Assembly: GCF_016125515.1 (NCBI RefSeq) | Contig: NZ_WGLO01000006.1 | Location: 1-64,000 of the forward strand | From: Hyphomonas sp. | GTDB taxonomy: Bacteria; Pseudomonadota; Alphaproteobacteria; Caulobacterales; Hyphomonadaceae | Length of the DNA: 64,000 bases | Reading direction: 5' to 3' | Shown here: in pieces, positions 27,941 through 34,267 of the stretch | Numbering within the stretch: the first letter of the stretch is position 1 | Layout: the number at the start of each line of letters is the position of its first letter | Notes under the pieces: model-generated | Told to the model about the DNA's origin: nothing | The model's database searches: none | The model's input: only the letters and a program-made list of their open reading frames with translations | Made by a program: the position numbers and the translations under genes

Positions 27941-29329
27941 ATGACCGATACGACCTACGACTATGACCTGTTCGTGATCGGAGGCGGCTCCGGCGGGGTG
28001 CGCGCGGCGCGCATCGCGGCGCAGGCCGGCGCCAAGGTGGCGCTCGCCGAGGAATACCGCATGGGCGGTACCTGCGTGGTGCGCGGCTGTGTGCCGAAGA
28101 AGTTCATGGTCTATGCCAGTGACTATGCGAAGAAGATCAGGCAATCGGCCGGATACGGATGGTCGGTCAGCGGCGTGTCCTATGACCATTCGGCCTTCCT
28201 CAAGGCGATGCATGCCGAAGTGGACCGGCTGTCGACCATCTATGACCGTAGCCTGAAAGGCGCGGGCGCCGAAATCTTTGCCGAGCGCGCGGAGTTCGTG
28301 GACCGGCACACGCTGCGCCTGATGACATCGGGCCGCACCGTGACGGCTAAGAAGATCCTGATTGCGACTGGCGGGCGCGTCTGGCGTCCAACGCCGGAAG
28401 AGCTGCCAGGTGTGGAACACACGATTTCCTCGAACGAGGTGTTCTTCCTCGATCCTCTGCCGAAGCGGATGATTGTCGCCGGCGGCGGCTATATCGCGCT
28501 GGAATTTGCGCATGTGTTTGCCGGGCTCGGCGTGGATGTCACGGTCGTCTATCGCGGCGACAAGGTGCTGCGCAGCTTCGACGAGGATGTGCGCGACGCC
28601 GTGACCGAGGGCCTGACGCAGGCCGGTATCAAGCTGGTGACCGGCACGGTGTTCGAGCGGATTGATCTGGAGGCGGACGGTGTGCGCCGCGTGACTCTGA
28701 AGACGGGCGAGACGCTGCGGGCGGAGACGGTGCTGATGGCGGTGGGCCGTGTGGCGAACACAGACACGCTCGGCTGCGACAAGCTGGGCCTGGCGCTGGA
28801 CCAGAACGGTGCCGTGATCGTCGATCAATGGTCGCGCACGAATGTCGACAACATCTGGGCCGTGGGCGATGTGACCGACCGGGTGAACCTGACGCCGGTG
28901 GCGATCCGGGAGGGCCATGCCTTTGCCGATACGGAGTTCGGCGGCCATCCCTGGCATATGGACCATTCGGATATTCCGACAGCGGTGTTCACGCAGCCTG
29001 AAGTCGGCACGGTGGGTCTGACCGAGACGATGGCGCGCGAACAGTTCGGCGAGATCGACATCTACAAGACGAGCTTCAAGTCGATGAAACACGCGCTGAG
29101 TGGCAGCGCGACGCGTGTGATGATGAAGCTGGTGGTGCGGGCGTCGGACCAGCGCGTACTGGGCATTCACATCGTGGGCGAAGACGCCGCCGAGATGATC
29201 CAGATGGTGGGCATCGCGGTGAAGATGGGCGCGACGAAGCCGGACTTCGACCGGACCTGTGCGCTGCATCCCTCGGCGGCCGAGGAGATCGTCACGCTAC
29301 GGACGAAGTGGGTCGCGCCGGCAGTGTGA
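27941..29329 (+). CDS. gor: glutathione-disulfide reductase
   Basis: A 462-residue FAD/NADPH disulphide reductase keeping glutathione reduced. FAD motif VIGGGSGGVRAARIAAQAG, redox-active pair GGTCVVRGCVPKK (Cys-x4-Cys), NAD(P) motif VAGGGYIALEFAHVFAGLG, and the dimer-interface His-Glu in CALHPSAAEEIV that protonates the thiol. The basic residues after the second Rossmann motif (VVYRGDKVLR) fit NADPH specificity and glutathione reductase rather than lipoamide dehydrogenase. 52 bp after rpiA. Confidence 0.93.
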   Translation: MTDTTYDYDLFVIGGGSGGVRAARIAAQAGAKVALAEEYRMGGTCVVRGCVPKKFMVYASDYAKKIRQSAGYGWSVSGVSYDHSAFLKAMHAEVDRLSTIYDRSLKGAGAEIFAERAEFVDRHTLRLMTSGRTVTAKKILIATGGRVWRPTPEELPGVEHTISSNEVFFLDPLPKRMIVAGGGYIALEFAHVFAGLGVDVTVVYRGDKVLRSFDEDVRDAVTEGLTQAGIKLVTGTVFERIDLEADGVRRVTLKTGETLRAETVLMAVGRVANTDTLGCDKLGLALDQNGAVIVDQWSRTNVDNIWAVGDVTDRVNLTPVAIREGHAFADTEFGGHPWHMDHSDIPTAVFTQPEVGTVGLTETMAREQFGEIDIYKTSFKSMKHALSGSATRVMMKLVVRASDQRVLGIHIVGEDAAEMIQMVGIAVKMGATKPDFDRTCALHPSAAEEIVTLRTKWVAPAV

Positions 29330-29360
29330 GCGGGGCGGATTTGAAATACGCTGCCATCCT

Positions 29361-29548
29361 GCCATCCCGGCGAAAGGCGGGACCCAAAGAAGCACGGTCA
29401 AACGTCATCGAGCTCATGCTGAGCGAAGTCGAAGCTCGAGCGTGCGGGAGCGGCCGTTTGAGCCCGCTATCCTTCGAATTCGCTAAGGATCAGCTTTGAT
29501 GGGTCGGCACTTGGGGCAAGTCTGGGGCCCGTCTTTCGCCGGGGTGAC
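29361..29548. repeat. composite element bounded by inverted REP-like ends
   Basis: The left end has CATCCCGGCGAAAGGCGGGACC (from 29363); the right end has the inverted match GGCCCGTCTTTCGCCGGGGTGAC (29526-29548). Between them is a second intergenic motif, GTCATCGAGCTCATGCTGAGCGAAG near 29407, of a type common in these genomes. The ~188-bp unit fills the gap between gor and the TIR-ParA gene and carries no plausible ORF. Confidence 0.55.
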
Positions 29549-29571
29549 AAGCGCATATGAACACAGGAAGG

Positions 29572-30882
29572 TTAGTGCCCTGAGCCGCCACCCTCACTCA
29601 GATTCTTCAATTCCAACGCAACCTGTTTCAGGCTGTCGCGAATGGCTTTGAGGCCGCCGCCCCGGCCGGCGTGGACGAGGAGCTGGCGCCAGGGCGGTTG
29701 GCCATCGACGGGGGCTTTCACGGCGAAGTGGGCCGAGCGCGGCAGGGCGGCGGTCATCAGCGACTTTGATAGGGGGAAGCCGGCGATCTGGTCGTAGACG
29801 CCGTTGCGCGCGTCGCCTTCGAAGGTCGACTGCTCGTTGCGGTTCACGGCATTGAACAGCACGGACAGTGCCGGACGTTTGGCTTCCTCGACCTGGTCAC
29901 GGATGACGAGGTTCAGGAGGCGCACGCCGCGCAGGGAGTAGATGTCCGCATGCATCGGCGCGATGACACGGTCGGCCGCTTCCAGCGCGCAGCGCGTGAG
30001 GAAGGTGGCGTTGGGGTTGGTGTCGAAGACGATTAGATCGTATTCGCTGCGATAGTGATCGATGGTGCGCAGGAAGTGCTGCTTGATGGCAGCAAGCGCG
30101 TCGCGGTCATTCGCAAAGGCGTATTTCGAGATCTCGAACTGGCCGGAGACGAGATCGAGCCGTCCGGGCGGACCGTCCTCACCGAGAATCTGGTGGACGA
30201 AGCTGTCGCGCGGCGCCGGCGTGAAGGGTGCGATGGTGAGGCTCAGCCAGTTCTCTGCCGGCGAGGCGGCGTCCTTGGCGTGCAGGCGCGAGCGTTCGAA
30301 CAGCGAGATGACCGAACGGTCGACGCCCGACGAGGCGTCGGCGGCCTCCATCGAGTAGAAGGTTTGGGTGAGGTTGTATTGCGGATCGAGGTCGATCAGC
30401 AGCACGCGCCCGCCATTGACCTCCTGCCAGGCGCCCGAGAGCTGGGCCGAAACGGTGGTTTTGCCGACGCCGCCTTTCAGGTTCATCACGGCGACGACGG
30501 GGCATTTGCGGCGATAGGCGCCCTGGGTCTCTGCGATGAGCTGTTCGAGGCCGTCTTCCATCGACGATGACAGGCGCAGCAGGGGCTGGACCTCGGTCTT
30601 GAAGAAGCCGTTCAGGCGCGCCTTGTCGATCTGGTAGGGGATGATCGGCACGCCGAGGGCCTTGGCGGTCTCGACATCCTGGCGCACCGCGCGCGAGCGC
30701 ACGGCGGCGGCTGAAACGAGCACGATGACCGCAAAGGCGGCGCTGATTTCGGTGTCTGCGCCCATGCGTTCGGGCTCACCGGTCGTGTAGCGATCTGCGA
30801 TCCCTGCGGCGCGCAGGGCCTCATGGAGTTGCAGCAGCGCATCCGGATCGGCGCCCGAATGGCTGATATAGACGTGCGGCAT
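29572..30882 (-). CDS. TIR domain fused to ParA/MinD-type ATPase
   Basis: A 436-residue two-domain protein. Residues about 1-95 form a TIR domain: HVYISHSGADPDALLQLHEA, EISAAFAVIVLVSAAAVRS, then AVRQDVETAKALGVPIIPYQID. Residues about 125-430 form a ParA-like ATPase with deviant Walker A NLKGGVGKTT (136-143), Walker A' LLIDLDPQYNLTQTF (164-166 Asp) and the DLIVFDTNPNATFL Walker B. Aligned by eye with SARM1, the catalytic Glu falls on Asp69, with Glu71 two residues on. No ParB, nuclease or cyclase gene is adjacent. Its neighbours are housekeeping genes, so it looks like an insertion. A role in signalling, defence or positioning is open. Confidence 0.82.
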   Translation of the reverse strand: MPHVYISHSGADPDALLQLHEALRAAGIADRYTTGEPERMGADTEISAAFAVIVLVSAAAVRSRAVRQDVETAKALGVPIIPYQIDKARLNGFFKTEVQPLLRLSSSMEDGLEQLIAETQGAYRRKCPVVAVMNLKGGVGKTTVSAQLSGAWQEVNGGRVLLIDLDPQYNLTQTFYSMEAADASSGVDRSVISLFERSRLHAKDAASPAENWLSLTIAPFTPAPRDSFVHQILGEDGPPGRLDLVSGQFEISKYAFANDRDALAAIKQHFLRTIDHYRSEYDLIVFDTNPNATFLTRCALEAADRVIAPMHADIYSLRGVRLLNLVIRDQVEEAKRPALSVLFNAVNRNEQSTFEGDARNGVYDQIAGFPLSKSLMTAALPRSAHFAVKAPVDGQPPWRQLLVHAGRGGGLKAIRDSLKQVALELKNLSEGGGSGH

Positions 30883-31036
30883 GGCGCATCAGTCCCCGTG
30901 TTGAACCCTTGAAACCCCACGACCTTTTAGCCGCTGAAGCCCCGAATCAGCCAGCTTTGTGCTGTGAAATTATGGTGAAACTTGAGCATGCGCCTGCCAT
31001 GTGATTTATGCGCCGCACATTAGGAGCTTACGCATT

Positions 31037-32413
31037 ATGGCCTGGACCCCCTCTGACTGGCGCAAATTGCCTGCCCAGCACATCCCGCAGGACTATCCTG
31101 ACACGGGCGCGCTGGTGGCTGTCGAAAACCGCCTCAGGAGCTATCCGCCACTGGTTTTTGCGGGCGAAGCGCGCCGGCTGAAGACCCGTCTGGCCGAGGT
31201 TGCGGCCGGAAATGCCTTCCTGCTGCAGGGCGGAGACTGTGCCGAGAGCTTCAAGGAGTTCCACCCGGACAATATCCGCGACACGTTCCGCGTGATCCTG
31301 CAGATGGCCGTCGTGCTGACCTTTGCGGCGGCCAAGCCGGTCGTGAAAGTGGGCCGTATCGCCGGCCAGTTCGGCAAGCCGCGGTCCGAGCCGATTGAAA
31401 CCATCGATGGCGTGACGCTGCCCTCCTATCGGGGCGACAACATCAACGGCATGGATTTCACGCCCGAGAGCCGCATTCCGGATCCGGAGCGCCTGGTGCA
31501 GGCCTATTCGCAATCGGCCGCGACGCTGAACCTGCTGCGCGCTTTCAGCCAGGGTGGTTATGCCAGCCTCGCCAACGTCCAGCGCTGGATGCTGGGCTTC
31601 GTGGACCGCAGCCCGCAGGGCGAGCGCTACCAGAAACTGGCGGACCAGATTTCGGCCTCCCTGCGCTTCATGCAGGCAGTGGGGCTCAATGCCGAGACGG
31701 TGCCGCAGATGGCGCAGGTGGAGTTCTACACCAGCCATGAAGCGCTGCTGCTCGGCTATGAAGAAGCGATGACGCGCATCGATTCCACGTCCGGCGATTG
31801 GTACGACACCTCGGCCCACATGCTGTGGATCGGTCACCGCACGCGCCAGGTGGACCACGCGCACGTGAACTTCTGCAAGGGCATCAAGAACCCGATCGGC
31901 ATCAAGTGTGGTCCCGGCATGGAGACCGACGAGTTGCTGCGTCTGATCGAGACGTTGAACCCGAGCGACGAGCCGGGCCGCATTACGCTGATCTCGCGCT
32001 TTGGCTCCGAAGGCGTGGCGAAGGGCCTGCCGCCGCTCGCACGCGCAGTGAAGAAGTCCGGCCGCACGGTCGTCTGGTCGTGCGATCCGATGCACGGCAA
32101 CACGCTGAAAACCGGCACCGGGTTCAAGACCCGTCCAGTGGACCGCATCCTTTCGGAAGTGCGCCAGTTCATCGACATCCTTCCCGCCGAAGGCTGCTAT
32201 CCGGGCGGTGTCCACTTCGAGATGACGGGCCAGAACGTCACCGAATGCATCGGCGGCGCGCAGGCGATCTCGGAGGAAGATCTCTCCAGCCGCTACCACA
32301 CGCACTGCGACCCGCGCCTCAACGGCGAGCAGGCGCTGGAACTCGCGTTCCTCGTGGCGGAGAAGCTGCAGCAGGTCGAGACCAAGAGCACCGACACGCG
32401 CAAGGCGGGCTAA
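31037..32413 (+). CDS. 3-deoxy-7-phosphoheptulonate synthase, class II
   Basis: A 458-residue class II (plant-type) DAHP synthase, joining PEP and erythrose-4-phosphate as the first shikimate step. Motifs: [46 protein letters not shown]-like STSHEA region, [37 protein letters not shown] and [18 protein letters not shown] 31037 has TAGGAG at 31021-31026; the frame opens at 31001 but with no ribosome site. Feeds aroC at 10.9-12 kb. Confidence 0.95.
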
Positions 32414-32569: not shown

Positions 32570-33787
32570 TCAATGCAACTCAACCGGAACGCTCAAAACG
32601 TTCGTGAGAAAAGGGTGCGCTTCGCGCACGACCGGGCCAACACGCCGGACAATGACTTTCCGGGACGCCATCTCTTCCAGAAGGATGCGCAGCTGTAGCT
32701 CGGCGAGACGCGCGCCCAGACAACGGTGAATGCCATAGCCGAATGCGATATGATCCCGAGCGTTCTTGCGGTCCGCGATGAAACGGTCCGGGTTCTCGAA
32801 AACGGCCTCATCGCGGTTGCCTGAAATGTACCACATGACGACAGAGTCCCCTGCCTTGAAGGTCTTACCTCGAAACTCTGTATCCTCGGTGACCGTGCGC
32901 CGCATGTGTGCTGCAGGTGATTGCCAGCGGATGGCCTCCGGAACTGCCGTGATGATGAGGCCCGTGTCGGCGTAGAGCTTTTCGCGCTCCTCCGGCCACT
33001 GATCAAAGGCGATAGCAAGGCCTGACATGGTGTTGCGGGTCGTATCGTTGCCGCCAACAACCAGGGTCGCCATGTTTCCAAGGAATTCAGGCGCATCCAT
33101 ATGGCCGAGCGCGCCGGAATGGATCATCCGGGACAACAGATCAGGTGCCTCCGGGGTGGAGGCACGCTCCTGCCAGAGGCGCAGGAAATAGGCCGCCATT
33201 TCACCCATTTTTTCCATTCGGCCCTGTGGCTCCTTCTGGATGCGCTCCAAGGACACGATCCAGTCTGTCCATTCCGGCAGGAGGTGTCGATCTTCCCATG
33301 GAAAATCGAACAAGGTGGCAAGCATATCGGTCGTCAAACGGACGGACACGTCCGAGACCCAGTCAAACGTCTTACCCCTTGGAAGTTGGTCCAGAAGATC
33401 AGACGTCCGGTTCCGGATGTTTTCCGAGAGGCGCGTCATTTCCTGGGCTGAGAAGGCAGGCACAAGCGCTTGGCGCCGCGGCCCATGGTCGGGCGGGTCC
33501 ATCTGGATAAAGGTCACGAGACTCTCCACGCCGGGAGGCTGGATCAAGGATACTCCGCCCCGCTGGTAGGACGAGGAAAACCGTTCCGGCTGCAGTTCAA
33601 TTTCCCTTATGTCGGCATGCCGGGTGATGGACCAGAACGGACCGTGTTCGCTGCTGGCACAATAGTGCACAGGTGCTTCCTGGCGGAGCCTCTTCATCAG
33701 GGGATGAATGCTCCCATCCGCGAACCTGTCGGCACGGCTGGGGTCGATGGCTTCGAGAGCCGAGATGACGTCATCGTCCATGTGCAT
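32570..33787 (-). CDS. cytochrome P450, CYP153-like
   Basis: A 405-residue soluble P450. Haem-binding loop FGYGIHRCLGARLAEL (Cys356), ExxR 284-287 (EAIR), and I-helix oxygen motif VVGGNDTTRN (245-250). The segments HYCASSEHGPFWSITR and VMWYISGNRDEAVFENPDRF strongly recall CYP153 enzymes, which hydroxylate terminal carbons of alkanes and fatty acids. The last ~30 residues differ, so function is inferred only by family. No ferredoxin or reductase gene is adjacent. Start ATG 33787 has AGGAGA. Eighteen bases downstream of the MarR gene, likely one operon. Confidence 0.88.
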   Translation of the reverse strand: MHMDDDVISALEAIDPSRADRFADGSIHPLMKRLRQEAPVHYCASSEHGPFWSITRHADIREIELQPERFSSSYQRGGVSLIQPPGVESLVTFIQMDPPDHGPRRQALVPAFSAQEMTRLSENIRNRTSDLLDQLPRGKTFDWVSDVSVRLTTDMLATLFDFPWEDRHLLPEWTDWIVSLERIQKEPQGRMEKMGEMAAYFLRLWQERASTPEAPDLLSRMIHSGALGHMDAPEFLGNMATLVVGGNDTTRNTMSGLAIAFDQWPEEREKLYADTGLIITAVPEAIRWQSPAAHMRRTVTEDTEFRGKTFKAGDSVVMWYISGNRDEAVFENPDRFIADRKNARDHIAFGYGIHRCLGARLAELQLRILLEEMASRKVIVRRVGPVVREAHPFLTNVLSVPVELH

Positions 33788-33805
33788 AGTGTCTCCTGAT
33801 GGGAC

Positions 33806-34267
33806 TCAGCCCCGGCTGAGATTCGTTGTGATCTGGTCGAGCATCCGGCGAAGGAGCTGCAATTCCTGCGCTGTCAGTCCCCGGAAGGTTTGGGCATAGA
33901 TCTCCGAGATGGCCTCGCGCAGGCTCGCGAGCAGCGCCTCAGCCTCGGGTGTCGCTGAAATCGCCCAGGCGCGCCGATCTTCAGGCACCGGTTCCCGCAC
34001 GACCAGGCCGCGTGCGCTAAGGCTGTCGATCGCGCTGCCGACGCTGGCGCGTTCCAGTTCAAGCAGCCTTGCCAATTCTGTCTGGGTCAGACCGCTTTCA
34101 CGCAAGACATAACCCATCAGGCGCCACTGTGTCCTGCTGAGGCCGCTATCGACAAGGATCTCGTCGATGGCGCGCCGGAGCATCCGAGGAATGTCCTCGA
34201 ACCGGAACGTCAGTTCATCGAGTTCGGTGAGTATCCTGCGCAAGGCGGCATTCTTTACGATTTTCAT
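33806..34267 (-). CDS. MarR family transcriptional regulator
   Basis: A 153-residue winged-helix regulator: helices through LSRTQWRLMGYVLRESGLTQTELARLLELERASVGSAIDSLSARGLV, then wing with EPVPEDRRAWAISATPEAEALL. MarR proteins usually repress their own operon and release DNA on binding small aromatic or fatty ligands. Sits immediately upstream of the P450 and probably controls it. ATG 34267 has no strong ribosome site; a nearby AT-rich palindrome lies upstream. Confidence 0.87.
   Translation of the reverse strand: MKIVKNAALRRILTELDELTFRFEDIPRMLRRAIDEILVDSGLSRTQWRLMGYVLRESGLTQTELARLLELERASVGSAIDSLSARGLVVREPVPEDRRAWAISATPEAEALLASLREAISEIYAQTFRGLTAQELQLLRRMLDQITTNLSRG

Follow-up and report, generated by a model that had tools for sequence, protein, structure and literature searches.

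A vertically inherited TIR-ParA gene of the Hyphomonadaceae: a possible spatial organiser with a degenerate TIR domain

Bacterial TIR domains have been studied almost only as immune NADases encoded by mobile or island genes, and the presence of one at the N terminus of a ParA-type ATPase, in a gene that lies among housekeeping functions, raises the question of what such a protein does for the cell. The gene, here called tir-parA, is found in a 64,000-nucleotide stretch of the genome of a Hyphomonas sp. (contig NZ_WGLO01000006.1, positions 1 to 64,000; 'the window'), and an earlier note, made from the sequence of this window, had drawn attention to it. The features of the gene and its product are as follows.

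29572..30882, minus strand: tir-parA, an open reading frame with an ATG start whose translation is 436 aa long
30538..30873, minus strand: TIR domain, residues 4-115 (Pfam TIR_2, 33.4 bits against a cut-off of 28; AlphaFold and Foldseek)
29593..30504, minus strand: ParA/MinD-type ATPase domain, residues 127-430 (Pfam AAA_31, 94.9 bits; Foldseek matches to pNOB8 ParA and Soj)
30676..30678, minus strand: codon of Asp69, the site of the catalytic Glu of TIR NADases (orthologue counts and HMM alignments to solved TIRs)
30454..30477, minus strand: deviant Walker A motif KGGVGKTT, residues 136-143 (alignment of 24 orthologues)
30379..30393, minus strand: Walker A' motif DLDPQ, residues 164-168 (D164, D166, P167 and Q168 invariant)
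30013..30024, minus strand: Walker B region DTNP, residues 287-290 (4 of 4 residues invariant)

Two domains in one gene

The open reading frame is not a chance product, since 61 distinct related sequences could be aligned across the gene and dN/dS over its entire length is 0.03-0.16. The gene is under purifying selection, with dN/dS among estimable pairs of 0.01-0.17 for the TIR half and 0.02-0.21 for the ParA half. As the earlier note had proposed, it joins a TIR domain to a complete ParA/MinD ATPase in a single chromosomal gene, a reading on which the Pfam assignments, the AlphaFold model and the sequence motifs agree.

In the ParA half, the AAA_31 match covers residues 129-337, and the motifs NLKGGVGKTT, DLDPQ and FDTNP vary little or not at all among 24 orthologues. 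K136, G137, G138, G140, K141, T142 and T143 of the Walker A motif do not vary, and position 139 is V or I, so that the deviant Walker A (KGGxGKT), Walker A' and Walker B elements of the ParA/MinD family are all present. This half of the full-length model has only moderate pLDDT; a Foldseek search with the whole model matched the ParA proteins pNOB8 ParA and Soj and, at rank 30, the two-domain ParA-like structure 3fkq, which we take to be TadZ, over 390 alignment columns at a low TM-score of 0.23-0.28. The best domain-level match is NCBIfam ParA_partition, far under its own cut-off, and in a tree of ParA domains the window protein and its orthologues form a clade of their own, joined solely by a distant relative (L052, below) and apart from canonical Soj and other ParAs.

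The TIR half retains its fold. A TIR_2 match at E<=0.001 was obtained for 23 of 24 orthologues, some of them under the Pfam cut-off, and residues 1-124, modelled separately with AlphaFold from the 24 orthologues, gave TIR topology at a mean pLDDT of 93. The best PDB matches of this model in Foldseek are plant, bacterial and animal TIR domains, including RPS4, BtpA, AbTir, the SPARTA TIR and SpbK, with the top TM-scores for SPARTA TIRs (TMq 0.79). Both the domain search and the structure prediction that the earlier note had suggested as checks therefore return a TIR, with the flavodoxin-like alpha/beta fold of that family.

The enzymatic signature of the domain has fared differently. Profile alignments with solved bacterial TIRs, to which the window TIR has weak HMM matches (Cat1 among them), independently place Asp69 at the position of the SARM1-type catalytic Glu, where the earlier note had put it by eye; of 60 orthologues, 41 have Asp here, 18 have Gln and a single one has Glu, the last being the most divergent orthologue (L051, 40% identity), from a Ponticaulis-type genome. 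Residue 71 is Glu in 46 of the 60 and Q, A, I or S in some others. The window protein thus lacks the catalytic Glu on helix C, and its TIR also lacks the Trp four residues ahead of that position, the W-x-D...L-x-x-G element and the usual BB-loop motif. The genome itself (G000, 3.2 Mb) provides an internal control: it contains 11 TIR_2 domains in total, and the Glu is kept in 9 of the other 10, most of which also have the W-x-D...G element that is absent from the tir-parA product. (One of these 11 TIRs is joined to an FGE-sulfatase domain, L241:2377-3897.) Given that other TIRs depend critically on this Glu for their NADase activity (PMC7075850), and because it has been replaced by Asp or Gln in 59 of 60 orthologues while the other TIRs of the genome mostly keep it, NADase activity of this domain appears unlikely, in line with the doubt that the earlier note had voiced. 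What is conserved in the TIR half clusters on helix A (D14, L16, L17, H20, E21 and R24, invariant in the 24-orthologue alignment) and at a few core positions, a pattern suggestive of a retained interaction surface.

Inheritance at a fixed chromosomal site

The gene lies between two conserved neighbours, which are not considered part of the system.

31037..32413, plus strand: class-II DAHP synthase (DAHPS), divergent neighbour (Pfam DAHP_synth_2; synteny)
27941..29329, plus strand: glutathione reductase-like flavoprotein (gor), convergent neighbour (Pfam Pyr_redox_2; synteny)
30883..31036, no strand: divergent intergenic region between tir-parA and DAHPS, 154 bp (136-174 bp in all orthologous loci measured)
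30944..30948, no strand: GANTC (CcrM-type) site, 66 bp upstream of the tir-parA start (comparison of orthologous loci)

Each of the 37 genus genomes sampled in a protein search of relatives gave a full-length match, and single-copy orthologues are present in 41 of 42 genus genomes and 65 of 105 family genomes. The latter count derives from 67 genomes matched at E<=1e-15, from which a contig-edge fragment (G083) and a distant, L052-type protein (G093) were dropped; it includes one orthologue cut off by a contig end (G077). Beyond the family, the search for the same architecture that the earlier note had recommended covered the contigs of 84,980 species, and full-length matches were limited to Hyphomonas, Henriciella, Ponticaulis and other Hyphomonadaceae bins (some apparently mislabelled), the next-best matches being ParA proteins that have no TIR. 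Among 385 genomes of the class, a profile search matched the genus alone, no full-length TIR-ParA relative was found in plasmid, phage and viral collections, and viral contigs searched with the TIR alignment yielded nothing. Scans of this kind are most sensitive to close relatives and could overlook a distant TIR-ParA. Several candidates were set aside: the open reading frames of the loci checked among distant matches L129-L154 have no N-terminal TIR; the viral, phage and plasmid matches start near or within the ParA part, save some RepA proteins that match from about residue 68; and the apparent N-terminal extension of L245 (G002), which would have made it a third two-domain relative, is uvrB in another frame.

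Among approximately 40 orthologous loci, whose conserved neighbours are DAHPS, gor and a MATE transporter gene, DAHPS adjoins tir-parA divergently in nearly all and gor adjoins it convergently in most, with other genes on the gor side in some Henriciella loci. Several Henriciella lineages, most of genus g19 and other genera lack the gene, which hence is not essential to the family; in Henriciella and g19 loci without it, gor and DAHPS are mostly immediate neighbours, and a TIR profile found no copy elsewhere in five such genomes (G064, G067, G068, G080 and G103). When mapped on a DAHPS tree (39 genomes with the gene, 28 without), its presence requires six changes against 21.6 expected by shuffling, which, together with the fixed site, reads as one origin followed by a few losses. 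Protein distances of the tir-parA product correlate with those of DAHPS (Spearman 0.91), those of the TIR half correlate equally with those of the ParA half (Spearman 0.91), indicating that the two domains co-evolve, and the base composition of the gene is native (GC 65.1% vs 64.7%). The proposal in the earlier note that the gene is an inserted module is rejected on the strength of the genus- and family-wide synteny and the congruence of distances with DAHPS; single-copy occurrence, native GC and the plasmid and phage searches also speak against it. Its 'REP-bounded element' probably stems from a 27-nt imperfect inverted repeat pair (29360-29386 and 29523-29549, 85% complementary, 136 nt apart) located between gor and tir-parA; this pair does not bound the gene. 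In sum, tir-parA is a real, Hyphomonadaceae-specific and vertically inherited gene, undescribed as far as the searched collections and the open literature show: a search of the latter found no paper describing the architecture and PADLOC recovered no such system, which agrees with the earlier note's statement that no TIR-ParA system has been characterised.

On the far side of DAHPS, the window contains a cytochrome P450 and a MarR-type regulator (32570-34267) ahead of the MATE transporter. DAHPS and MATE are adjacent in most relatives, and the P450 and MarR genes have no homologue in the compared loci, so they are likely a lineage-specific insertion.

The earlier note was also right that the gene stands without a partner. 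There is no ParB or other partner gene beside it, its orthologues too come without a ParB, and the sole ParB_N gene of the genome lies at contig C7, adjoining canonical Soj. Separately, three g16 loci (L202, L204 and L213) have a 283-aa ParA and a 122-aa gene directly upstream of DAHPS and in the same direction, the 122-aa product matching no Pfam family and ending in RDAKLF(D/E)Y; a similar ParA and small-partner unit lies upstream of DAHPS in a genome of another family (L186, G058), which has two such ParA genes. This looks like an undescribed two-gene ParA unit, tied to TIR-ParA by the ParA fold alone. Descent of tir-parA from it was rejected because its ParAs form a separate clade near the Hyphomonas ParA L236, and the common DAHPS neighbourhood looks coincidental.

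With respect to regulation, 30 of 38 genus loci carry a GANTC site, its N varying, at -63 to -67 relative to the start of tir-parA; five Henriciella loci have one at about -51 to -60, and loci without the gene have none at the corresponding place. This conservation, in counts that ignore kinship, is a lead that tir-parA may be under CcrM/GcrA cell-cycle control; a CtrA site of the form TTAA-N7-TTAA was looked for in the 250 bp preceding the genus orthologues and not found.

Positioning, defence and other readings

ParA/MinD ATPases position varied cargos via highly diverse or unrelated partners, and many of them are 'orphans' (PMC10241942). With a probability that we put at about one half, the tir-parA product is an orphan, vertically inherited spatial organiser of this type, in which a degenerate TIR serves as a non-enzymatic interaction module on a two-domain plan like that of TadZ/CpaE. 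Its ParA half would cycle between an ADP-bound monomer and an ATP-bound dimer on nucleoid DNA, as ParA proteins do, with ATPase activity, dimerisation and DNA binding predicted from the motifs. The TIR, with its conserved helix-A residues, would act in docking or assembly and connect the ATPase either with a cargo or polar site or with an assembly of TIRs (or mediate self-assembly), much as an alpha/beta localising domain sits at the N terminus of the ATPase in TadZ/CpaE, and its partner would be encoded elsewhere in the genome. That ParA systems usually have a co-encoded partner, whereas tir-parA has none, counts against this reading, as do the absence of the gene from parts of the family, the low TM-score of the 3fkq match and the moderate pLDDT of the modelled ParA half.

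Positioning or scaffolding is a better-supported reading than phage defence: of the roles suggested in the earlier note, spatial sensing and a signalling scaffold are favoured by the evidence and defence is not supported. A defensive protein might sense invading or replicating DNA through its ParA part and respond through its TIR, by NAD+ depletion or a signal, and known bacterial TIRs do come mostly from defence systems, while 11 TIR_2 domains are present in this one genome. A distant relative lends further weight to such a role. L052 (L052:9207-11056), known from one genome of genus g16 in the same family, is a 476-aa TIR-ParA at a different genomic site, whose best matches among approximately 780 genomes sampled from the class and phylum are Hyphomonas proteins. 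It has the same two-domain order as the window protein, and its ParA domain clusters with those of the window family (support 99/84, subject to a long-branch warning). However, the two are only 27-28% identical, and L052 keeps the canonical SEWVKKEVE motif intact in a TIR that scores 67.5 bits against TIR_2 and matches the PADLOC defence models SAVED_TIR (52.5 bits) and ThsB (33 bits); in addition, a co-encoded 140-aa gene downstream overlaps its stop by 4 bp. L052 and the 140-aa gene are possibly a defence system, and an intact TIR in such a relative makes it plausible, on the thin evidence of a single genome, that the housekeeping gene descended from an active, perhaps defensive, TIR-ParA. 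The window protein itself is different: the catalytic Glu has given way to Asp, as it has to Asp or Gln in nearly all orthologues, and PADLOC gave it neither a TIR nor a ThsB match, a candidate (PDC-M28B, 16 bits) being rejected as a match to the P-loop only. Against defence also stand the fixed housekeeping synteny, family-wide inheritance and native GC of the gene, the lack of full-length relatives in the plasmid and phage collections, and the absence of defence genes alongside it among the window's open reading frames and their Pfam matches. Defence is consequently considered unlikely for tir-parA.

Three further explanations are less probable still. The near-invariant divergent layout, with its spacer of 136-174 bp across the family, could mean that the protein is a local regulator of the DAHPS gene and thereby of the aromatic amino acid pathway, but Pfam finds no DNA-binding domain apart from ParA, many genomes keep DAHPS at the same site without tir-parA, and vertical inheritance alone would conserve the gene order, all of which make such a role improbable. 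It is about equally hard to sustain that the protein is a second chromosome or plasmid partition ATPase working with the genome's ParB: its ParA motifs are complete and ParA_partition is the best, though sub-threshold, domain-level match, but the only ParB_N gene adjoins canonical Soj and the canonical ParAs from these genomes fall into a different clade. Least credible is a still-active NADase or cADPR synthase, gated by ParA for housekeeping signalling and using Asp69 or Glu71, for although Asp and Glu chemistry is alike, both residues are common among orthologues and the divergent Ponticaulis copy keeps its Glu, position 69 is Gln in 18 of 60, position 71 varies, the accompanying Trp and W-x-D...L-x-x-G elements are absent, and the Glu is critical in other TIRs (PMC7075850).

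Within the spatial-organiser reading, a more specific role can be imagined for stalked, budding Hyphomonadaceae. In Hyphomonas neptunium, chromosome segregation has a second step, in which one origin travels through the stalk to reach the bud and whose mechanism is described as unknown; the transfer of chromosomal DNA from mother to bud is an open question in a genus for which genetic tools exist (PMC6650430). An immune-type TIR might have been domesticated for the non-enzymatic targeting of a ParA motor whose task is to move or anchor some large cargo, and which could be a component of this origin transfer; the GANTC site would then link its expression to the CcrM/GcrA cell-cycle programme. 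We regard this as a long shot, because Henriciella also has the gene and losses occur; both facts favour a positioning role that extends beyond the stalk. If the organiser reading is true, tir-parA would be a clear case of a TIR without its catalytic site that serves everyday cell biology as an assembly part, and would mark a route from a defence-like TIR-ParA of the L052 type to a housekeeping form. It also offers a concrete candidate for a part in Hyphomonas cell organisation, one that is easy to delete.

Relation to known systems

Known defence and partition systems differ from tir-parA in their partners. No ThsA (SIR2-SLOG or macro effector) lies beside it as in Thoeris, its neighbours being gor and DAHPS; unlike the TIR effectors of CBASS, its TIR is fused to ParA and not to STING or SAVED, and no CD-NTase is found among the neighbouring proteins scanned; and in contrast to ParABS, no ParB gene adjoins it in the approximately 40 orthologous loci. 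Bacterial TIR NADases and cyclases (AbTir, ThsB, the SPARTA TIR, SpbK and Cat1) have the same fold as the window TIR, which differs in lacking the catalytic Glu, the preceding Trp, the BB-loop motif and a defence partner, and in being carried by a ParA-type ATPase instead of SIR2, STING, Argonaute or NLR.

With the ParA/MinD ATPases (Soj/ParA, pNOB8 ParA, McdA, MipZ and PpfA/ParC), the window protein shares complete deviant Walker A, A' and B motifs and a fold that matches Soj and pNOB8 ParA. It is distinguished by its N-terminal TIR, where these have no such domain, an HTH or a receiver-like domain, by the absence of a co-encoded partner, and by its membership, with L052, of a separate clade. 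The N-terminal domain of TadZ/CpaE is an atypical receiver, whereas the window protein scores as a TIR with no receiver match and is surrounded, in the window and in orthologous loci, by gor, DAHPS and MATE with no tad or cpa genes; what the two have in common is the overall plan, an alpha/beta N-terminal domain of approximately 125 aa followed by a ParA-like ATPase, and the Foldseek alignment with 3fkq, though low in TM-score, spans both domains.
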